Virus record (IMG/VR): IMGVR_UViG_3300047548_000478
Coordinates: 1 to 33,912 of that record
Length of the DNA: 33,912 nucleotides
DNA from: a virus
Strand: one strand, 5' to 3'
Part shown: one piece after another, positions 7,964-25,227 of the stretch
Layout of the letters: every line of letters starts with the position of its first letter
Numbering within the stretch: the stretch's first letter is position 1
Translations under genes and position numbers: made by a program
Notes under the pieces: generated by a model
The model's input: the letters and a program-made list of their open reading frames with translations, nothing else
Databases searched by the model: none
Told to the model about the DNA's origin: nothing

Positions 7964-8470
7964 ATGAGTGCTAAAAATACCGAAGCAACTTTTTGGGCTC
8001 GTGTCAACCGTGGCGCCCCATACGATTGCTGGGAGTGGGAAGGCGCGATAACTAGCAGCGGATATGGGAATACCTCTTGGCATGGAGCTAGGGTGCAAGC
8101 GCACCGACTAGCCTACTTTTTGGCTGTCGGGGGTATCGAGTTGAAGACTGGATTTAGGGACGCCGGGGTCGCAAAGGAGTATCAGAAATTTGTGCTGCAC
8201 AGATGCGATAACCGACGGTGCTGCAATCCGGCACATTTGTTCCTCGGGTCTATGCGGGATAACCAAATAGACGCTTACTCTAAGGGTAGGAGGGAGCAGC
8301 CTAAGAGCATGCACGTAAACGCCAAAATACCAGCTGCAGAAGTGTCCCGCATTAGGAGTAGGTACAAGGAGGGCGGTATAACGCAGAAGGCGCTAGCCTC
8401 TGAATACTCAGTGTCGCAGGTATCCATCAGTTTGATACTCCGCAGAAAAACCTACAAGGACGTAGAGTAA
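7964..8470 (+). CDS. Free-standing HNH homing-type endonuclease
   Basis: This gene encodes a 168-aa protein of the HNH_3 type common in phages. It opens FWARVNRGAPYDCWEWEGAI, then GYGNTSW, AHRLAYFLA, the ββα-metal core VLHRCDNRRCCNPAHLFLGS and MRDNQIDAYSKGR. A C-terminal helix-turn-helix (TQKALASEYSVSQVSISLIL) probably gives site recognition. The base composition is more AT-rich and uses rarer ATA and CTA codons than its neighbours, as expected for a mobile gene. It ends with TAATG shared with the DNA polymerase start, so it has inserted precisely before an essential replication gene, where such nucleases often sit. Confidence 0.9.
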   Translation: MSAKNTEATFWARVNRGAPYDCWEWEGAITSSGYGNTSWHGARVQAHRLAYFLAVGGIELKTGFRDAGVAKEYQKFVLHRCDNRRCCNPAHLFLGSMRDNQIDAYSKGRREQPKSMHVNAKIPAAEVSRIRSRYKEGGITQKALASEYSVSQVSISLILRRKTYKDVE

Positions 8471-11199
8471 TGCCAGAATTAGTTACAGTAGATGCGGAAA
8501 CGTTTTACTCACGAGATTTCAGTCTAACCAAGCTGACTACCGAGGCATACGTACGCGACAGCAGGTTCGAGGTCATCGGCGTGGCTATCAAGATCGGAGA
8601 TGGGCGTACTACGTGGTACCCAAAGCCAGAAGTAGCCGGAGCCATCGAGAGTATCGACTGGTCGGACAAGCTGGTGCTGGCGCAGAACTGCGCCTTCGAC
8701 GCGGCCATCCTGGCGTGGCGCTACGGCGTCAAACCGTTGGCTTGGCTGGACACGCTTGGCATGTCGCGCGCGCTGTTTCCGCACGAGAAGTCGCACAGTT
8801 TGGACGCGCAGGCCAAACGCATGGGGGTGGGTACCAAGGGCACTGAGGTGCACAACGCGCTTGGCATGCGGTATGAGGACTTCACCCCGGCGACGCTGGC
8901 TCCGTATGGCGCCTACTGCAAGAACGACGTTGAGCTGACCTACGGCCTATTCCAGCGCTACATGGCCATGGGCTTCCCCAAGCAGGAGCTCAAACTGATC
9001 GACATGACGTTGCGCATGTTCGTGGAGCCCGTGCTGAAGCTAGACGCAGACCTGCTGACCAAGCATTTGGTGGAGGTACGGTCACGCAAGCGAGAACTGC
9101 TGGAGCGGGTGCGCGACAACATGCTGGCCAACGCCGACCCGGACTACATAGCCACGGTGTTCTCCGAAGGCACGGAGGGTATCAAGAAGCTGCTGATGAG
9201 CAACGAGAAGTTTGCCGCTGCCCTGCAGTCCCTCGGCGTCGACCCACCGCGCAAAGTAAGCGCCACCACGGGCAAGGAGACCTGGGCGTTTGCCAAGACC
9301 GACGAGGCATTCAAAGCTCTGGAGGAGCACCCGAGCGAGGAGGTGCAAGCACTGGTGGCTGCGCGGTTGGGCAACAAGACGACGCTAGAGGAGACCCGCA
9401 CGGAGCGGTTCATTGATATGGCGCGCCGCGGCGCGTTCCCGGTGCCCCTGCGGTACTACGGAGCACACTCCGGTCGTTGGTCTGGCCAGGACGCCGTGAA
9501 CATGCAGAACCTTCCCTCCCGCGGTCCCAACGCCGGCGCCATCAAGAAAGCCATATTGCCCCCGGATGGGCACGTGATGATCGACTGCGACTCCGCGCAG
9601 ATCGAAGCGCGAACCCTGGCGTGGCTGGCTGGGCAGGACGATCTGGTGCAAGCGTTCCGCGACAAGCAGGACGTTTACAAACTCATGGCGTCGAAGATTT
9701 ACGGCGTGCCAGTGGAGGAAGTCACCCCATTGCAGCGGCAAGTCGGAAAGACCGTGGTGCTTGGGGCCGGCTACGGCGTCGGGCACGTAAAACTACAAGG
9801 GTTCCTGAAGGTTCAGGCCAAGGTCGAAGTTAGTCTGTCGGAGGCCAAGCGCATCATTGACACATACCGCGCGGCGGCCCCAAGGATCACGGAACTGTGG
9901 GCGCGCTCCGGCGACGCGCTGCGCGCGCTGATGATGGGTCAGGAGATGCCGATTGATGTACCCGGGCTGGTTCGTGTTGTACCCGGGCAGGGCCTGACGC
10001 TGCCAAGCGGGCTGTGCATTCAGTACCCAGAGCTGCGCGCGGTGACCGGCAAGGATGGCAAACGCGAGCTGGTGTACACGTCGAAGGGGCTGCCCGTCCG
10101 GATCTACGGCGGGAAGTGCTTAGGGGCAGACACAGAAGTTCTGACTCCTAGGGGCTGGGTGCCGATCGTATCCGTAGCAACCGACGACAAAGTCTGGGAC
10201 GGTGTGGAATGGGTAAATCATTCCGGGTTGACGTTCCAAGGTTATAAGCCTACCATCGTACTGAACGGGGTCCGTATGACCGAGGACCACGAAGTTCTTA
10301 CTAACTACGGGTGGCGAGATGCATCATCGTGCGAAGGACTATACGGGGCAGACTTTTGGATGCCTGACGGCAGTGAGGTACGCGGGGGCCGAACGGCGTT
10401 CCATCTGGGAGTTCCAGTGCCGATGCGGGGCGCGCGTAACCCGGACGGCGATAGACGTGGAGAAATATGCGAAGCGTGGTGGAAATTCGTCTTGCGGCTG
10501 CGCAGTCGGGGAAAAAAGTGCTACGCACGCGATGTCGAACCACCCAGCGTATTGGGTTTGGAGGTCAATGCGAGACCGCTGCAAGCTACCTTCGCATCAG
10601 GCGTGGCACAACTATGGAGCGCGTGGGATAACGGTATGCGCAGAGTGGGAGAAGTCGTTCGAGCGGTTTTGGCAGGACATGGGCTCTACATATCAGCCTG
10701 GGCTCACGCTGGATCGGAAAGACAACAACCTGGGATACAGCCCAGAAAACTGCCGCTGGGTGTCTATGGCCGTGCAAGCCGGGAACCGAAGGAACTCGCT
10801 CCCAGTGGACATCCGCAAGGCGCACGAGTTGACGGGGGTGCCGAGGTCTACACTGGAATTCCGATGGAAACGCGGCCTGTCTATGACCTCCTCAACGCCG
10901 GACCCAGATCGCGGTTCGTGGTCCGAGGTTCTTCGGGCCCGTTCGTAGTCCACAACTGCGTCGAGAACTTCACGCAGGCCATCGCGCGGTGCATCGTGGC
11001 TGAGCAGATGCTGCGCATATCCAAGCGGTACCCAGTGGTGCTGACGGTGCACGACGCTGCAGCAATCGTGGCGCCGGAGGCAAAGGCCGACGAGGCACGG
11101 GCCTACGTGGAGGAGTGCATGAGCTGGAACCCTGCCTGGGCGCAAGGGCTGCCACTGGCCTGCGAGTCTGGGGTTGGAGCGAGCTACGGCGACTGCTAA
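8470..11199 (+). CDS. Family A DNA polymerase with 3'-5' exonuclease, interrupted by an intein
   Basis: This gene encodes a 909-aa precursor; removing the 280-aa intein leaves a 629-aa polymerase. The exonuclease motifs are DAE at residues 8-10 (Exo I), QNCAFD ending at D77 (Exo II) and YCKND at 149-153 (Exo III). Polymerase motif A is DCDSAQIEAR (372-381), and motif B is RQVGKTVVLGAGYG (423-436). Motif C is VHDA (860-863), where the usual HDE glutamate is Ala; the metal-binding Asp is kept. The intein lies between YGGK (546-549) and CVENFTQAIAR (830-840). AAGGA stands 9 nt before the ATG. It is the replicative polymerase of the phage; activity requires protein splicing. Confidence 0.95.
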   Translation: MPELVTVDAETFYSRDFSLTKLTTEAYVRDSRFEVIGVAIKIGDGRTTWYPKPEVAGAIESIDWSDKLVLAQNCAFDAAILAWRYGVKPLAWLDTLGMSRALFPHEKSHSLDAQAKRMGVGTKGTEVHNALGMRYEDFTPATLAPYGAYCKNDVELTYGLFQRYMAMGFPKQELKLIDMTLRMFVEPVLKLDADLLTKHLVEVRSRKRELLERVRDNMLANADPDYIATVFSEGTEGIKKLLMSNEKFAAALQSLGVDPPRKVSATTGKETWAFAKTDEAFKALEEHPSEEVQALVAARLGNKTTLEETRTERFIDMARRGAFPVPLRYYGAHSGRWSGQDAVNMQNLPSRGPNAGAIKKAILPPDGHVMIDCDSAQIEARTLAWLAGQDDLVQAFRDKQDVYKLMASKIYGVPVEEVTPLQRQVGKTVVLGAGYGVGHVKLQGFLKVQAKVEVSLSEAKRIIDTYRAAAPRITELWARSGDALRALMMGQEMPIDVPGLVRVVPGQGLTLPSGLCIQYPELRAVTGKDGKRELVYTSKGLPVRIYGGKCLGADTEVLTPRGWVPIVSVATDDKVWDGVEWVNHSGLTFQGYKPTIVLNGVRMTEDHEVLTNYGWRDASSCEGLYGADFWMPDGSEVRGGRTAFHLGVPVPMRGARNPDGDRRGEICEAWWKFVLRLRSRGKKCYARDVEPPSVLGLEVNARPLQATFASGVAQLWSAWDNGMRRVGEVVRAVLAGHGLYISAWAHAGSERQQPGIQPRKLPLGVYGRASREPKELAPSGHPQGARVDGGAEVYTGIPMETRPVYDLLNAGPRSRFVVRGSSGPFVVHNCVENFTQAIARCIVAEQMLRISKRYPVVLTVHDAAAIVAPEAKADEARAYVEECMSWNPAWAQGLPLACESGVGASYGDC
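10117..10956 (+). other. Intein in the DNA polymerase (in-frame splicing domains)
   Basis: These 280 codons correspond to residues 550-829 of the polymerase precursor. Block A starts at Cys550 (CLGADTEVLTPRGWVPI). Block B is GVRMTEDHEVLTNYGW with the TxxH residues T604 and H607. Block F begins RPVYDLLNAGPRSRFVV at about 802, and block G is FVVHN followed by Cys830 as the +1 extein residue. Cys1, penultimate His, terminal Asn and +1 Cys are all present, so class 1 splicing should work. Joined exteins read YGGK-CVENF, the expected continuous polymerase motif. Residues about 617-799 match no known intein endonuclease in this frame and are rich in Arg, Gly, Ala and Pro. The DNA there encodes an HNH enzyme in another frame. 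Confidence 0.93.
10319..10948 (+). CDS. HNH endonuclease nested in the intein in the +1 frame
   Basis: This gene encodes a 209-aa protein read in a different frame from the polymerase. The N-terminus (DYTGQTFGCLTAVRYAG, then CRC at 34-36 and CGC at 59-61) matches the zinc-ribbon opening of phage HNH proteins. Residues 79-159 carry the characteristic core: VWRSMRDRC, YGARGITVCAEW, FERFWQDMG, LTLDRKDNNLGYSPENCRW and QAGNRRN. Residues 166-187 form a C-terminal HTH (ahelTGvprsTlefRwkrGls type). Its ATG lies directly after intein block B, with a weak GGTGG upstream. Its TAG (10946-10948) lies 8 bp before the intein end. The last about 20 codons overlap blocks F and G. It probably acts as the homing nuclease of the intein, expressed as a separate protein. 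Confidence 0.88.
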   Translation: MHHRAKDYTGQTFGCLTAVRYAGAERRSIWEFQCRCGARVTRTAIDVEKYAKRGGNSSCGCAVGEKSATHAMSNHPAYWVWRSMRDRCKLPSHQAWHNYGARGITVCAEWEKSFERFWQDMGSTYQPGLTLDRKDNNLGYSPENCRWVSMAVQAGNRRNSLPVDIRKAHELTGVPRSTLEFRWKRGLSMTSSTPDPDRGSWSEVLRARS

Positions 11200-11227
11200 A
11201 CTGCACGGGCACTTTAAAAGGAACTTC

Positions 11228-11887
11228 ATGAAACTAGCCCATTCGTACTCATCAATCAAGCAGTTTGACACGTGTCCTAGACAGTACAACGAAGTACGCA
11301 TACTCAAGAAATTCAAGTCCAGTGAAACCGATGCAACTCGGTATGGTACGGAGGTACACAAATCGTTGGAGCTCAACTTGATGGAAGGCCAACCCATTCC
11401 AGACAAGTTCAAGCAGTTCGAGCGGTTTGTGGCGCCCCTGCGCGGCTTGACCGGCACCATGCTGTGCGAGCAGAAGATGGGTATCCGCGCGGACTTCTCG
11501 CCGTGCGACTTCTTCGACCCCGAGGTGTGGTTCCGCGGCGTGCCGGACGTGCTGGTAGTGAACGGAGAGACGGCGCGGGTCGGGGATTGGAAGACCGGCA
11601 AGTCCAGCCGGTATGCTGACACGGCCCAGCTTGAGCTGATGGCTGGCATGGTGTTCGCGCACTATCCGGACGTGCAGCGCGTCAAGGGCGCCCTGATCTT
11701 CTTGGTGGCTAACGACGTGGTGAAGGCCGACTATACGCGCGACCAGTTTGCTGAGATCATGTCGAAGTGGGCAGGCAAAGCCTCGCAGATCGAGGCCGCC
11801 GTGGAGTCTGGTGTGTGGAACCCGCGCAAAGGGCCCCTGTGCAAGTTCTGCCCGGTGTCTGCAGACGTCTGCGAATTTAAGGAGTGA
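11228..11887 (+). CDS. PD-(D/E)xK nuclease, Cas4/RecB-like with Cys cluster
   Basis: This gene encodes a 219-aa protein. The chosen ATG follows AAAAGGA; an upstream in-frame start at 11174 would overlap the polymerase end. Nuclease motifs are visible in order: SYSSIKQFDTCPRQY (helix with the first Cys), GTEVHKSLE (motif I His), GVPDVLVV (PD), GDWKTGKSS (the D/ExK motif) and a Q in AQLELMAGM. The end, CKFCPVSADVC, supplies three more cysteines, as in Cas4 and AddB nucleases that bind an Fe-S cluster. It is likely a DNA end-processing exonuclease for replication or recombination. The next gene follows after 19 nt. Confidence 0.85.
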   Translation: MKLAHSYSSIKQFDTCPRQYNEVRILKKFKSSETDATRYGTEVHKSLELNLMEGQPIPDKFKQFERFVAPLRGLTGTMLCEQKMGIRADFSPCDFFDPEVWFRGVPDVLVVNGETARVGDWKTGKSSRYADTAQLELMAGMVFAHYPDVQRVKGALIFLVANDVVKADYTRDQFAEIMSKWAGKASQIEAAVESGVWNPRKGPLCKFCPVSADVCEFKE

Positions 11888-11906
11888 GCCATGGAAGGAA
11901 GTGGAT

Positions 11907-12161
11907 ATGCCTAGGAACCCCCGCGACTACCAGAAGGAGCGGGCCTACGACGGCAAGCCCGAAGTCAAAGCCAAGCGCGCGGAGCGCAACCGCGCCCGCC
12001 GAATGTACGAGAAAGAGCACGGCGACCTGCCGAGCTCCGTAGACGTAGACCACAAAAAGCCTTTGGCCAAGGGTGGCACGACCAAACTCGGCAACCTACG
12101 TGCTGTGCCGGCGGCCAAAAACCGCTCGTTTGCTCGCACCAAAACCGCTCGGATGAAGTAA
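11907..12161 (+). CDS. Small HNH-type nuclease
   Basis: This gene encodes an 84-aa basic protein starting MPRNPRDYQKERAYDGKP. It has the shortened HNH pattern VDVDHKKPLAKGGTTKLGNL followed by AAKNRSFARTK, a form common in phage replication modules. GGAAGGAAG upstream supports this start. The conserved DH, GG and N positions are present; the final metal His of the classical motif is not obvious, so catalysis is not certain. It is the third HNH protein within 4.2 kb and follows the Cas4-like gene closely. Confidence 0.8.
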   Translation: MPRNPRDYQKERAYDGKPEVKAKRAERNRARRMYEKEHGDLPSSVDVDHKKPLAKGGTTKLGNLRAVPAAKNRSFARTKTARMK

Positions 12162-18960: not shown

Positions 18961-19171
18961 CCTGCAGGTGCTCAACATCTTCGGGGCGGATTACTTCATA
19001 GACTGGCCCCGACTGCAGCGGGGCATGTCGTTCTTCCTCCCTACAACAGCTACGGCTAGGCAAGTGCAAACCGCGCTGCGGCCGGTGGCTACTGCGTTCA
19101 ACTACGAGTTTGCGACCCGACCCCGGTGCGAGTATGGGCGCTACGGGGTCAGGGTCTGGCGCGTTCGTTAG
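18938..19171 (+). CDS. Small phage protein of the 'VRVWRV' type, second copy
   Basis: This gene encodes a 77-aa protein starting MTNPKLNDLQVLNIFGADYF. It overlaps the primase-helicase end by 23 nt. Its layout GMSFFLPTT, a helix with QTALRPVATAF, then GRYGVRVWRVR resembles the 14345-14590 protein, so they are likely diverged paralogs. It is the last plus-strand gene. Its stop overlaps the stop of the convergent 2019-aa gene by 4 bp. Confidence 0.7.
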   Translation: MTNPKLNDLQVLNIFGADYFIDWPRLQRGMSFFLPTTATARQVQTALRPVATAFNYEFATRPRCEYGRYGVRVWRVR

Positions 19172-22100
19172 AGCTGTGCGGCGGCCCGCAGCTCGCGCAG
19201 CGGGAAGTCCTTGAGCAGCTCGGTCTCGGCAGCCTCCAGCTCCTGCAGCAGCTCCATCTTCTGCGCCCCAGTCAGCTCAGTCGCCGGCGCGGCGTTCACC
19301 GCGCGCTTCTCGCGCCGAATCTCAGCCAGGGTGCGGGCGGCGTCCTCGACGGTCTCGACCACTGCCAGACGGGCAGCAACCTTCTCATCCTGGGTGTAGC
19401 CTTCCAGCAGCTGCGGAGCGCGGCGCTCCAGGGCGTCGGACGTCACCTTGACCTTACGCACAGCGTCGCGGAGCTCGAAGAAGTCGGCCTCCAGGCCGGA
19501 CTCGTTGCTCTTGGTGACCACCGCGCCGAGACCTGGGAACGACGCCACCGCGTCGCGGAAGGTCATGTCCGCGCGCTCGACTTGCCCCACTGGGCCCAGC
19601 AGGAAGTTGGTGGCGTACAGCGCGAGCCCGCCGACAGAGCCGAAGTACCCGCGGATGACATGGTCCAGCGCGATCGGCGAGACGTTGTCCCGGCCGAACA
19701 TGGGCGCCAGCGCCTTGGACAGCTCCGACGTGCTGTCGTTGTACTGCATGAACTTTTCCTGCTGCGCCTCGTAAGGGCCGATCAGCGCGCGCTTCGTGAA
19801 GAAGTTGTAGTTGGTCGCGACTTCAGCAGTCGGCTTGAGCACTTGCGGCACCGCGGTCGGGCTGAGCACCGTATCCAGCAGGGCGTCACGCATGGCCTTC
19901 TTGAACTTGGCCGGGTCAGTCGTGCCGTTGTCCACCAGCGTGTTCCACAGGTACTCGCCAGTGATTTTGGGCATCAGGAACACGTCAGGGCGCAGCGGGA
20001 TGCCGACGCCGAGACCCGGCACGAGCAGCATCCGGTCCCGCTTGTAGGCAGGGATTTCCTCGTACTCGTCGTCGCCGCTCACCAGCGCCGCGTAGACAAA
20101 CGACATGGCCATCGTGGCTGCCGTCATCTGGGCCAAGGTCTTGAAATGGTCCGCACGCTGCGTCGGCGACAGGCCCTCTCCAGTAGCCGTTTTGGCAACC
20201 ACGTGGGTGGCGGCCAGATACGCGTTGAAGAACGGGATTAGCTGCGCGGCAACCGTCAAGGTGCCGCTGCGGCCGCGGTAGCGGAAGTTGATGATGTCCG
20301 CCGCCTTCTTCATGGCCTCTGCGCGGCTCAGGCCCTGCTCCAGCGAAGCCTCGTAGACCGCTTGCCGCACCGCGTTGTCCGACGCCATGGAGATATGGTG
20401 CAGTGCACCAAGCACTCGCTGTTTGAACCCAGGTGATCCCTTCACGCCGGCCGCCACCTCGAAGTCATTACGCCGAGTCGCCGCAGAGGCGTCTTTCTGG
20501 CCGGCGATACCGTAGCGGCGCAGCGCCTCGTGGGTCTGGCTGGTTCCTCGCAGGGTCTTGACGAACTCCTTGACCGCCCGTGCCGGAATGGTCATCGCGT
20601 AGCGCGGCTTCAACCCCGACGTGAACATCGCAGCGAACGAGTCTTGCGGCACCTGAAGCACCGGGAACAGGGGGAACAGCACCACGCTTTGGCGCAGCAC
20701 GTTCGCAGTCTTGGTGGCCCAGTTCAGCGCTGGAATGGCTACACCCTCCATGCCTTGGAAGGCTTCCAGCACACCCGGGGTCTTGACGTCAAAGTAGTGC
20801 ACGCGGCCGTCCCGGTACACGCGCGCCACGTTCATGCCGCGCTGCGGGGCTTCCACCTTCTCGGCTAGCCCGGTTTCCTGCAGAGCATCCAGCATGTCCG
20901 ACGCCTTGCGGTTGCGCACGCCGCGCTCCACAGCGTATCGGGTCCAGCGGATCGTGTTGTCAAAGATGTCAGCCACAGGGCGGGTGGAGCCCTTCATGCG
21001 CTTGTCTGCCTGCACCATGAAGCTGGACATGAACTCCTTGGGCCCCTTGCCGGCTTCGGCTTGCTCGTCGCGGTAGAACGGCACGTAGGCTGCGCGGTCC
21101 AGCAGAGCGTCGGCTTCTTCGCGGGAGTACATCCCGCTCTCAACCATCAGGTCCAGCGTATTGCCACGGATGCCGTCCCAAATCTTCGTGGCTTCGCGCA
21201 GCTCAGGGATCGTGTTGTAGAGCTCCAAGCCGCGGCGGACTTCGTCCGGAGTGCGCTGCAGCAGTTTGACTCGCTCTCGCGTGGCTTTGGCAGCCGCCTT
21301 GTTTCCGGCAGCCTCTTGGCGCGCCGCGATGTTCTCCAGGCGGTTGTTCTCGTCGTTCAGGGCCTGCGTGCGCGCCGCCTCGGTGGCAAAGTGCCACATG
21401 CGCTCCACCTCAGCGGTATCGAGCCCGTACTTTTGCGCGATTCCAGCGAATTTGGCCGACAGGTTGTTGAAGTTGTACTGCGACTTGACCGTCTTCCAGT
21501 TGTGCGTCTCGGCGTCATAGCGCGCGGCTCCGTCAGACATGTACTGGTCGGCGAAGTTATCGCTGTGCACAGCAGCGTGCGTAGACACGCGCAGCAGCAT
21601 GTCAGTGACCTGCGGGGAGGTCATGTTGGCAGCGATCGCAGCGCGGCGAACTTCGCTCTGCAGCGTAGCGTCCGTGGACCACACGAGGTTACTGAACCGG
21701 TTGTAGATGTTGCGGGCCGACTCCCGCAGCGAGCGGGTGGCCTGTTGCGGGTTCTGCAGCGTGCTGGTGATCGCCTCGCGCGCCTTTTGCGTCAAGGTCG
21801 GGTCCGGCTCTTGGGGCTTGCCGAGCGAGTCCGCCAGCTCACGTGCGCGCTGTGCGGGGGCAGCAAGCGACTGGCTCGCCGGCGCGCCGCCCACCTGCGG
21901 GGTATCGAACCATGCGTCAGCCGCGCCAGGGCCCATGGCGTCGAGGAACTTTGCCACCGACTCCGCAGGTACGTATTTCTTGCCTTGCACGGCTGCCGCC
22001 AGCTTGCGCAGCTGAACCGCCAGCGCCGAGAAGAATCGCTCCACCAGACCGACCGGCTTTTCCGACGTGGTTGCCCAACGGGACGTGTTGTCTGCAAACC

Positions 22101-25100
22101 ATTCCGCAAAGCTCTTCCAGTACGACGACAGATCATCAGCTTGGAGAACCTGCGGGGTCTTGGCGATAGTTTCTGCCGCAGACTCGCGGTTACGCAGGCT
22201 GTCGATCAAATCTCGGGCCGACTTGCCTTTGGTACTACGGAGCCACTGCTCAAACTCTTTCTTGACCGCCGCTTTGGTGGCCGCAGGGGCGTTGTTGTAC
22301 GCGACCTTCTCAATCAGGTGCCCAAGCTCGTGCGTCAGCACTTCAATAGTGCGCGCTTCCGACATACCGGGCTTGACCGAAATGTAAAAGTCTTTTTTGT
22401 CCCGCCCAAACTGGCGAACCGATCCGTTCTCATTGGCATCTAGCCCAGCCGACATTGCAGAGTAGTACGGGCCGTACAAGTTGTAGGCAGCTTGGCCTTG
22501 GCGCGCGGCGTCAGGATGCAGCAAAAAGACCCGTACGCGGCCTAGCCCCATGGCCTGCATAAGGTCAGCCAAGTACGCGGTGTACCTCGGGTCTACGTCT
22601 GCGGTCGCCGCCACATTACTAACGGCTCCAGTAAATGGGCCGTCGGGAGCTGCCGCCGCCGCGTCCGCCTGAGCCTGCACGTCAGAAGCCTTAGCCTTCA
22701 GCAGCTCTGCGCGCTCGTTAGCCGAGAACAGGTCGCCCGTGTACGACTCAATGTCCATGCGCGTGCGCAACCCGCCGTCGCGTTTGACGCCTACATAAAC
22801 AGCACCGCCGGTAAACGCGCTGTACCCGCGCACGAGGGCAACCGCTTCGGATACAGGAATGACTACACCGCCGAGGTCTTTGGCGTGCCCAGCAACCCAG
22901 GAGGAATCAATCGGTGCAGGAGCGGGGGGCTCGACGGGCGCAGGGGGCTCGACGGGCGCAGGGGGCTCGACCGGAGCGCGGGCTGGGGTAGGCTCCGAGG
23001 TGGGTGCCGGAGCAGCCTTAGCGCGCGGCTTGCGCGGAGCCCGCAGGTCCAAGGCCTCCTGTGCCGACTTGGCGCGCGCGACGTCTGGCACCTGCCTCCA
23101 GGCGTCGGCCAGCTGTGCTTGGCGTTCTTGCTCCGCACGCTGCGCTGCGGCGCGCTCCATGTCGGCTTGATACCCAACGGGCTCGGGGAATAGCGGCAGC
23201 TGGCCGCCAACCGGCACGGGCGCCGGCAGCTCGAAGTCTTCTGCCGCACTGGCTTCCGCCGGCTGGGCCTCGGGCTCCGCCCGACGGGCCGCACGGGCCC
23301 GTGCTTCCGCGGCTCGCAGCGCCCGCTCGAACTCCGCCACCGGCATCATCTTGGCCACAAAGTCGCCGACAGCTTCGTTGTCCGGGTCGCTTGGCGTCTG
23401 CTGTACACGCACCAGCTCGTCCATGGCCGCGTCGAACTCAGCCTGAGTAGTGGCCGTCTGCAGCGCGCTTAGTGGAGCGGGAGTACCTCCCGCCACTGCA
23501 TTGTCTGCACCAGCAGGTTGCTCACCAGCTCCCACTCCGGCCCCGTCAAGTGGCTCAGCTCCGGCGGCACCGGCAGCTCCGGGTCCTCCATCGCTAGGTA
23601 CGCCCACGCCAAACTCAGCTGTTGGTCGTTGATCCTCTGGCTCAGGTCGAAGTGCACTTCCAGCGGGCGCTGGAGCGGGTTCTGGGTAGATCGTGTCAAA
23701 GATATCTCCACGGACAAGTTGGCGTTTGCCGACAAACTCGTCGCGCCGTGCGCGAGCCTCCGCCGGGTCGAGGTTCAGGATGCCAGACAAGAATTCCTGG
23801 CCGCGTTTGGTCTTGGCCCAGTTCAACGTGCTGGGGGGCAGGACGTCTTCGGTCAAGCTCGGGTGCGTTAGCAGCTCCGGCTTCTTGCGCTTGGTAGGCT
23901 CCGGGATGTTGTCTGGTTGCGGTGCAGCAGAAGGCCCCCCGAGGTCCATAGGCTCGGCCGTAGTCGGCATGCCAGCAGGAGTGCGGCGCAGCGGCAGCCG
24001 CATTTGGCCAGCGGTTTCGAGGTCTGCCGCAGTCGGCGCCGTCGGCTCGGGCTCTGGCTGCACAGGCAAAGTGCCCGGCATACCCATACCGCCGAACTCC
24101 ATCTGCTGGGGCTCGGTCGCGGCAAACGCGCTGGTGCGCGCCATCTCGGCATCCATGGCCTCTTGCGCAGCGCGGGCGCGTTCGGTTTCCACCGCCGACT
24201 TGACCTGCTCACCTTGCAGCTTACGGATGGCTTCGATTTCGGCGCGCTGCGCGGGCCCGACCGGCTGCGCGAGAATGGCCTGCTTGCGCTTTTCCAGTTC
24301 TTCGTACGTGAGAGCGGCGAGATCAGCTTCAGGCACCGGTTCGGGTTCTGCAGTGCGCGCTGCCTGCTCCGCAGCCCGGGCGGCTTCTCGCTCCCGTTGC
24401 GCTACGTCCTCGGCAGTTTCCGCCGGAGCAGCGGGGGCTGCGCCGCGCGCGCGGCGGCCAAGAGCCAAGTCCAGCACGCCTTGTGCGATCGCACCGACGG
24501 CGCCGCCGTAGGCAGCCTGCTCGCCAAGCCCCTCGATCAGCTGCTGCTCAGGCTTGTAAACGCCTTTGGCAATCAGGTTCTGTGCGAAGCCCGACGCGGC
24601 TTCCTGCGCGGCTTCTTCTCCGCCGGCCAGCAGTGCGCGCTTGACCAGCTGGACGCCAGTGGCCGTGACATCGGGCGGCAGGCGGCCGACGATGCGGAAC
24701 GGCGCGAACACTTCCAAGGCGCCAGGAATGATGCCGAGGCCGGTTGCGGCCGCGCGCTCTTCTGCCGTGGCACCCGCTTGCTCTGCGCGCGTGCGGGCCT
24801 CTCCGGCACCAGCCCCGATACCAAGGGACGCTGCAGCGGCCATGCCCGGCAGACCGAACGGTGCCGCCGCCAGGATAGGGATCAGGGAGCCGCCGGCTTC
24901 GCCGAGCTTGCGGCCGATCGTTTGCTCGTACCCAGGAGCGGCAGCGAAGGGCGCCTTAGCAGCGCCGGCCACATCGGCAATGCCTTTGCGGACCGCGGGT
25001 TCGTACTCATCAGGCAGTAGGGCAGACGCGCCGATCGCGGCTTGCTCAACCAGACCCACCGCGCCGGGCACGAGGCCCTTGAACGCCTCTTTGACTTGAC

Positions 25101-25227
25101 CTCCGACGGTTGGCTGCGGCGCGGATGCCGCCAGCATCCGCTTTACCGCTGCCTGAATGACGCTGGGTGGCGTGCCATCAGGGAATTCAAGGATTCGTCC
25201 ATCTGGCAGCTGCGCCTCAATCGTCAT
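19168..25227 (-). CDS. Polyvalent giant virion protein with metallopeptidase motif and LPD38-type region
   Basis: This gene encodes a 2019-aa protein. It begins MTIEAQLPDGRILEFPDGTP, an opening I recognise from large phage polyvalent proteins, then has a long Ala/Gly hydrophobic helical stretch (about 95-250). Glu/Ala-rich linkers and VEPPAP repeats (about 750-768) follow. A zinc metallopeptidase motif THELGHLIEKVA lies at about 965 (H966, E967, H970). Residues about 1500-1780 (VVLFPLFPVLQVPQDSF...INFRYRGRSGTLTVAAQLIP) match the large polyvalent protein domain LPD38. Such proteins are packaged and injected with the DNA to counter host functions. GAGGG precedes the ATG. It is the last gene of the virion operon. 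Confidence 0.82.
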   Translation of the reverse strand: MTIEAQLPDGRILEFPDGTPPSVIQAAVKRMLAASAPQPTVGGQVKEAFKGLVPGAVGLVEQAAIGASALLPDEYEPAVRKGIADVAGAAKAPFAAAPGYEQTIGRKLGEAGGSLIPILAAAPFGLPGMAAAASLGIGAGAGEARTRAEQAGATAEERAAATGLGIIPGALEVFAPFRIVGRLPPDVTATGVQLVKRALLAGGEEAAQEAASGFAQNLIAKGVYKPEQQLIEGLGEQAAYGGAVGAIAQGVLDLALGRRARGAAPAAPAETAEDVAQREREAARAAEQAARTAEPEPVPEADLAALTYEELEKRKQAILAQPVGPAQRAEIEAIRKLQGEQVKSAVETERARAAQEAMDAEMARTSAFAATEPQQMEFGGMGMPGTLPVQPEPEPTAPTAADLETAGQMRLPLRRTPAGMPTTAEPMDLGGPSAAPQPDNIPEPTKRKKPELLTHPSLTEDVLPPSTLNWAKTKRGQEFLSGILNLDPAEARARRDEFVGKRQLVRGDIFDTIYPEPAPAPAGSALRPEPEDQRPTAEFGVGVPSDGGPGAAGAAGAEPLDGAGVGAGEQPAGADNAVAGGTPAPLSALQTATTQAEFDAAMDELVRVQQTPSDPDNEAVGDFVAKMMPVAEFERALRAAEARARAARRAEPEAQPAEASAAEDFELPAPVPVGGQLPLFPEPVGYQADMERAAAQRAEQERQAQLADAWRQVPDVARAKSAQEALDLRAPRKPRAKAAPAPTSEPTPARAPVEPPAPVEPPAPVEPPAPAPIDSSWVAGHAKDLGGVVIPVSEAVALVRGYSAFTGGAVYVGVKRDGGLRTRMDIESYTGDLFSANERAELLKAKASDVQAQADAAAAAPDGPFTGAVSNVAATADVDPRYTAYLADLMQAMGLGRVRVFLLHPDAARQGQAAYNLYGPYYSAMSAGLDANENGSVRQFGRDKKDFYISVKPGMSEARTIEVLTHELGHLIEKVAYNNAPAATKAAVKKEFEQWLRSTKGKSARDLIDSLRNRESAAETIAKTPQVLQADDLSSYWKSFAEWFADNTSRWATTSEKPVGLVERFFSALAVQLRKLAAAVQGKKYVPAESVAKFLDAMGPGAADAWFDTPQVGGAPASQSLAAPAQRARELADSLGKPQEPDPTLTQKAREAITSTLQNPQQATRSLRESARNIYNRFSNLVWSTDATLQSEVRRAAIAANMTSPQVTDMLLRVSTHAAVHSDNFADQYMSDGAARYDAETHNWKTVKSQYNFNNLSAKFAGIAQKYGLDTAEVERMWHFATEAARTQALNDENNRLENIAARQEAAGNKAAAKATRERVKLLQRTPDEVRRGLELYNTIPELREATKIWDGIRGNTLDLMVESGMYSREEADALLDRAAYVPFYRDEQAEAGKGPKEFMSSFMVQADKRMKGSTRPVADIFDNTIRWTRYAVERGVRNRKASDMLDALQETGLAEKVEAPQRGMNVARVYRDGRVHYFDVKTPGVLEAFQGMEGVAIPALNWATKTANVLRQSVVLFPLFPVLQVPQDSFAAMFTSGLKPRYAMTIPARAVKEFVKTLRGTSQTHEALRRYGIAGQKDASAATRRNDFEVAAGVKGSPGFKQRVLGALHHISMASDNAVRQAVYEASLEQGLSRAEAMKKAADIINFRYRGRSGTLTVAAQLIPFFNAYLAATHVVAKTATGEGLSPTQRADHFKTLAQMTAATMAMSFVYAALVSGDDEYEEIPAYKRDRMLLVPGLGVGIPLRPDVFLMPKITGEYLWNTLVDNGTTDPAKFKKAMRDALLDTVLSPTAVPQVLKPTAEVATNYNFFTKRALIGPYEAQQEKFMQYNDSTSELSKALAPMFGRDNVSPIALDHVIRGYFGSVGGLALYATNFLLGPVGQVERADMTFRDAVASFPGLGAVVTKSNESGLEADFFELRDAVRKVKVTSDALERRAPQLLEGYTQDEKVAARLAVVETVEDAARTLAEIRREKRAVNAAPATELTGAQKMELLQELEAAETELLKDFPLRELRAAAQL
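22925..22978 (-). repeat. 18-bp tandem repeat encoding VEPPAP
   Basis: Two exact copies and one degenerate copy of an 18-bp unit (GGGGGCTCGACGGGCGCA on the plus strand at 22925, 22943 and 22961) encode repeated VEPPAP hexapeptides in the 2019-aa protein. It forms a stiff proline-rich linker just before the region that leads to the metallopeptidase motif. It probably expands and shrinks by slippage. Confidence 0.85.

Follow-up and report, generated by a model that had tools for sequence, protein, structure and literature searches.

Inteins in phage DNA polymerase genes that appear to carry their homing endonuclease as a separate gene in another reading frame

In inteins, an endonuclease in the frame of the host protein is the rule. 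The locus described here, within a 33,912-nucleotide viral sequence (IMG/VR record IMGVR_UViG_3300047548_000478; this whole stretch of DNA is called the window), raises the question of how an intein and a nuclease can share the same DNA in two different reading frames and of whether both are real. We consider it highly probable (about 0.9) that the inserted segment is an intein, functional to all appearances, and that its homing endonuclease is encoded as a gene of its own in a different reading frame, and we infer splicing, production of the HNH protein, target cutting and homing. The features of the locus are the following.

8470-11199, + strand: family A DNA polymerase (PolA) ORF of 909 aa, frame open throughout.
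8470-10116, + strand: N-extein of the family A DNA polymerase, ending in ...RIYGGK (PF00476, 1.5e-35; PHROG 17, 1.8e-88).
10117-10956, + strand: intein of 280 aa, Cys1...His279-Asn280, then Cys+1 (residues, RecA intein match, Hint fold).
10117-10158, + strand: intein block A (CLGADTEVLTPRGW), from sequence; omega of blocks A-B 0.19 [0.14-0.24].
10267-10302, + strand: intein block B (GVRMTEDHEVLT; T55, H58), from sequence; T55 and H58 invariant; the profile match is to structures of PI-MtuI (RecA intein).
10309-10314, + strand: GGGTGG, Shine-Dalgarno-like site for the HNH start, in intein Gly-Trp codons (duplex energy -5.3 kcal/mol).
10319-10948, + strand: HNH endonuclease gene of 209 aa, ATG...TAG, in the +1 frame inside the intein (PHROG 374, 1.6e-59; AlphaFold2 model; omega 0.21).
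10357-10872, + strand: the overlap in the intein frame, a stop-free spacer predicted to be disordered (pLDDT about 45; omega about 1; 0 stops in 121 inteins).
10873-10956, + strand: intein blocks F and G (RPVYDLLNAGPRSRFVV...FVVHN; pLDDT 95-97; omega 0.23 [0.15-0.36]).
10957-11199, + strand: C-extein (CVENFTQAIAR...VLTVHDAA...) with motif C inside (PHROG 7766, stretch 830-901).

The first-pass annotation of this DNA had proposed an intein with splicing blocks A, B, F and G in an open polymerase frame, and its coordinates hold in every respect. Along the polymerase, Cys550 is encoded at 10117, T604 and H607 lie within block B, and VYDLL of block F stands at intein residue 255; His-Asn precedes Cys830, the intein ends at 10956 and the insertion site is YGGK/CVEN, a conserved site in PolA of which intein-free alleles exist. 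Cys1, T55, H58, H279 and N280 are retained across the 86-88 aligned inteins (invariant in 86 relatives), and Cys+1 is present in the window. An AlphaFold2 model of the intein (86 sequences) displays a Hint fold, confidently predicted in two separate parts with a disordered middle between them, with pLDDT values of 88-98 for residues 1-80, 95-97 for residues 251-280 and about 45 for residues 90-250. Foldseek returned inteins or Hint relatives in 41 of 43 matches, the best PDB matches being mini-inteins; the best E value is only 1.5e-3, a score diluted by the disordered middle. Pfam and PHROG profile searches of that middle in the intein frame matched no family and no endonuclease, as had been anticipated, and the fused in-frame endonuclease of canonical large inteins is absent from the window, where the HNH gene is in the +1 frame. 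Conserved residues, fold and the purifying selection described below together lead us to predict protein splicing.

The HNH ORF takes up 75% of the intein DNA and, as had been claimed, is wholly enclosed by it, its TAG ending 8 bp short of the intein end; blocks F and G are mostly double-coded with the last HNH codons, which the first reading had also noticed. Its protein matches PHROG 374 over residues 3-189 (E 1.6e-59) and contains a CxC...CxC zinc site (C34, C36, C59, C61), an LDRKDNN...ENCRW core and a C-terminal helix-turn-helix. The AlphaFold2 model has a mean pLDDT of 91.2 and matched many phage HNH proteins in BFVD, and a fold search against the PDB gave nothing significant. The core is linked weakly in sequence to I-HmuI (E 0.023), the LDR of the former aligning with the VDH of the latter, so that an Arg replaces the catalytic His of I-HmuI throughout the family. 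Nuclease activity is consequently not guaranteed. The Arg form is common in free-standing HNH relatives too, and we therefore regard it as a family trait that does not exclude the protein from PHROG 374.

Other genes of the window deserve mention in their own right. A second, free-standing HNH gene (PHROG 1872/59; 7964-8470) lies directly upstream of the polymerase, overlapping its start in a TAATG. Downstream of the polymerase, the 3' part of an ORF at 11748-12161 resembles a small HNH protein (VDVDHKKPLAKGG...NLRAV), and a PHROG search of the downstream part gave no family. On the - strand, at 19168-25227, a 2019-aa ORF bears weak similarity to a virion RNA polymerase family (PHROG 2206, 1.3e-7) and adjoins an ORF resembling DNA ejection proteins.

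That the layout recurs had been missed, and it is here that the earlier description must be amended: the arrangement stands as described, and it belongs to a widespread class. When each frame was searched separately by tblastn, both led to the same phages at the same place, namely Shewanella phage SFCi1, Caulobacter phages GB2A, RW, RLK and KcrB, and APSE-1 to APSE-7, with identities to the window of 30-37% in the intein frame and 43-46% in the HNH frame. A second group, comprising Jerseyvirus Ent1 and Pseudomonas phage MR14, has its intein at a different PolA motif and its HNH gene in +2. Viral and bacterial collections were then scanned and all reading frames classified with HMMs; this screen of related phage and prophage DNA yielded 121 distinct inteins with an out-of-frame HNH gene, 107 in +1 and 14 in +2. 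Their host genes are PolA (at two motifs), SNF2-type helicases and one terminase large subunit (L110). The layout also occurs in IMG/VR contigs, one of which (L007) holds an identical copy of the window element, and in prophages of Alicyclobacillus, Novosphingobium, clostridia and Arsenophonus. Five PolA genes contain two nested inteins each (L243, L248, L253, L276 and L282); within the first four, one HNH gene is in +2 and the other in +1. The intein at 861-1781 of L282 occupies a group-B-like site with its HNH gene in +1 and groups loosely, on a very long branch, with the +2 HNH proteins, possibly reflecting a change of register. A decayed HNH gene in the first intein of L280 appeared possible by eye and received no support from the HMM search.

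How improbable an open second frame is can be gauged from the codons themselves. Across the HNH domain the intein frame contains no stop in 121 of 121 inteins. If synonymous codons are drawn at random for an unchanged HNH protein, each +1 intein is expected to contain 7.2 stops under host codon usage and 6.2 when the gene's own codons are permuted; the corresponding values per +2 intein are 3.5 and 2.7. HNH genes outside inteins, which served as a control list, do not keep the second frame open, and the zero-stop entries of that list are duplicate or truncated copies of nested loci. The identical copy of the element in a second contig and the 121 inteins with zero stops argue that the layout in the window is due neither to chance nor to a sequencing frameshift.

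Selection was partitioned by sorting the changes in 19 independent pairs of +1 inteins according to their effect in both frames; the figures apply to +1 inteins, since the +2 group supplied three pairs only and was not relied upon. The HNH frame is under purifying selection (dNN/dSN 0.21 [0.18-0.25]; dNS/dSS 0.16 [0.10-0.26]), while the overlap read in the intein frame evolves neutrally (dNN/dNS 1.22 [1.08-1.36]; dSN/dSS 0.93 [0.63-1.39]). Omega for the same 19 pairs is 0.19 in blocks A-B, 0.23 in blocks F-G, which are partly double-coded, and 0.25 in the upstream extein. These partitioned values, from a comparison that the first-pass annotation had itself suggested, indicate that the splicing parts and the HNH protein are each maintained and that the polymerase-frame reading of the overlap is held only to remain open.

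Clues that support independent translation of the nuclease come from its start. In 104 of the 107 +1 cases an ATG, GTG or TTG occupies one of a small set of fixed positions (mainly 0, -15 and -12), and the start codon is where the alignment of the HNH proteins begins. The family mean of the anti-Shine-Dalgarno duplex energy is -6.8 kcal/mol vs -2.4 kcal/mol for control ATG/GTG triplets of the same genes, and for starts at position 0 the Shine-Dalgarno sequence falls within the codons of the intein Gly-Trp motif. Gly-Trp itself accounts for part of the purine signal but not for the codon bias, the Gly codon before the start being GGA in 38 of 99 cases vs 575 of 4679 extein Gly codons (p 7e-11). 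No RNA structure was detected at the HNH start (z 0.40). Conservation of the start and its Shine-Dalgarno site, in conjunction with an omega of 0.21, leads us to predict a free HNH protein and current HNH function in most members.

Against this background, other explanations can be weighed. Ribosomes might shift frame after block B instead of initiating internally, yielding a fusion of the N-intein to HNH in which the nuclease is an alternative C-terminus of a truncated precursor. The HNH frame of the identical copy (L007) is open for 39 nt upstream of its ATG, and a shift there would reach HNH, but the restriction of ATG/GTG starts to a few fixed places with strong Shine-Dalgarno sites, the beginning of the alignment at the start codon and the need for two kinds of shift to serve the +1 and +2 registers make this reading very improbable. 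An insertion acting at the RNA level, that is, an intron bearing an HNH ORF in which the intein-like frame is incidental, might be entertained because phage introns often contain HNH genes of this type. It would, however, leave unexplained a complete set of Hint residues under purifying selection, a confident Hint fold and a frame open in every one of the 121 inteins; moreover, an Rfam search of 9800-11250 at E values up to 1 gave no match and found no group I intron catalytic core, and we give the intron hardly any credence. Less probable still is a sequencing or assembly frameshift masking an in-frame fusion of intein and HNH. One relative (L041) was scored as having an in-frame HNH, and its intein frame is broken near block A by an apparent, and probable, indel; against this, 121 distinct inteins, drawn from isolates, metagenomes and prophages alike, keep both frames open, neither is interrupted in the window, and no in-frame intein-HNH fusion was found among the relatives classified. 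The 121 conserved cases rule out an in-frame fusion disguised by such an artefact, and with the overlap of the intein frame corresponding to no known domain, neither of the outcomes that the first-pass annotation named as refuting its proposal was encountered.

The alternative to be taken most seriously, although we still judge it improbable, is that the intein splices while homing has been lost, with the HNH protein a dead or merely DNA-binding passenger. In its favour are the family-wide Arg at the position of the catalytic His of I-HmuI, two inteins that remain open around a broken HNH gene (L276, L042) and one around an HNH gene cut short (L131). Constraint on the HNH frame and on its start and Shine-Dalgarno site speaks against it, as do the patchy occurrence of the element among close polymerases and the usual presence of the Arg form in free-standing relatives. 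A splicing-competent intein with a separate, overlapping HNH gene, as first proposed, is the prediction favoured by the doubly open frames, the selection pattern, the AlphaFold2 models and the start sites.

With an intein and a separate HNH gene as the preferred reading, expression of the locus may be pictured as follows. Ribosomes in the polymerase frame would produce the 909-aa precursor, in which blocks A/B and F/G would fold as a Hint domain, the intein excising itself and the exteins being joined into a 629-aa polymerase; the overlap in this frame would act solely as a disordered, stop-free linker. Other ribosomes would initiate internally, at the ATG at 10319, with the GG-rich Gly-Trp codons of the intein serving as a Shine-Dalgarno site, and release a free 23-kDa HNH protein. 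This protein presumably cuts intein-free polymerase alleles near YGGK/(V/L)EN, whereupon repair would copy the intein together with the HNH gene. As to origin, a free-standing HNH gene of PHROG 374 type probably inserted out of frame into a mini-intein, in the stretch separating block B from block F, and such insertions perhaps happened more than once.

The distribution of the elements bears on this history. Group A PolA inteins sit in three registers of one motif, GGK|CVEN (10), GGKL|CEN (27) and GGKLVEN|CxQ (54). Approximately 30 polymerases, 64-80% identical to the N-extein segment of the window, have no intein and read YGGK-VVEN or similar, and the partner of the window polymerase in the extein tree is intein-free (L313). 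One empty polymerase (L288, 1197-1199) has Cys at +1 (YGGK-CVEN), a position taken by Val, Leu or Ala in all the other empty relatives; this Cys could be either a scar of loss or the mark of a permissive ancestor. Mini-inteins without HNH also occur (L129, L130). Judged from sequence, patchy occurrence, broken HNH genes and mini-inteins are compatible with a homing cycle; patchy presence suits repeated loss as well as homing. The HNH proteins of group A form one clade (support 95 in FastTree, 87/57 in IQ-TREE), outside which FastTree places those of group B and the terminase case. By the approximately unbiased (AU) test, one clade holding all nested cases is not rejected (p 0.098), for which reason we leave repeated origin of the nested layout as likely; at minimum, the frame register has changed.

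By their anatomy the elements are true inteins, outside the canonical in-frame class. They share with canonical large inteins (LAGLIDADG or in-frame HNH; PI-SceI, PI-MtuI) a homing endonuclease lodged between blocks B and F of a Hint domain; that endonuclease is there an in-frame domain of one polypeptide and here a separate protein in another frame. They share with group I introns containing endonuclease genes (I-HmuI in SPO1) a separately translated endonuclease inside a self-splicing element, but those introns splice as RNA, whereas splicing here is predicted at the protein level, so that the whole nuclease gene must be stop-free in a second frame. In APSE-1, GenBank annotates P46 as an HNH protein overlapping polymerase P45, truncated and without an intein; in the Ent1 PolA intein the splicing domains are annotated and the nested HNH gene is not. 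A total of 163 records are at least 80% identical to the Ent1 HNH; in the 12 Jerseyvirus-type matches listed among them, only polymerase or intein is annotated at the matching place.

A 2025 preprint by Gosselin, Arsenault and Gogarten (bioRxiv 10.1101/2025.01.02.630785) on actinobacteriophage inteins with non-canonical architecture reportedly concerns, to go by its title, unusual intein layouts, and may anticipate part of the nested layout. The published out-of-frame HNH insertions found in the literature searched are only the ShiLan domain and Pacc40, which lie in mycobacteriophage DNA methylases (Arsenault, Gosselin, Gogarten 2025, PMC11855218). These too are patchily distributed mobile insertions that leave the host frame stop-free, encode HNH in another frame and are proposed to use internal initiation, yet they lack splicing blocks, are classed by their authors as neither intein nor intron, and stay in the host protein (PMC11855218). 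The elements described here are not of that kind: the nuclease gene is carried by a true intein with a full set of blocks, their hosts are PolA, SNF2 and TerL, and their starts have clear Shine-Dalgarno sites.

Collectively, and with rather more confidence than doubt, we propose that phage composite inteins make up a large, previously unnamed class, spanning three or more host genes and two relative frames, in which the gene for the homing endonuclease is autonomous, overlaps the intein and has a ribosome binding site of its own; they would be the protein-splicing counterpart of composites of introns and homing endonuclease genes, having formed repeatedly when free-standing HNH genes invaded mini-inteins out of frame. 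Textbooks treat the intein endonuclease as an in-frame domain, and nested elements depart from that. With the nuclease uncoupled from the intein, its dose would be set by its own start site, and the splicing domain is freed from having to house a folded insert, the price being a nuclease gene that avoids stops in a second frame. Such HNH genes go unannotated in many phage genomes, and the different registers, broken copies, mini-inteins and empty sites offer material on how composite mobile elements form and decay.
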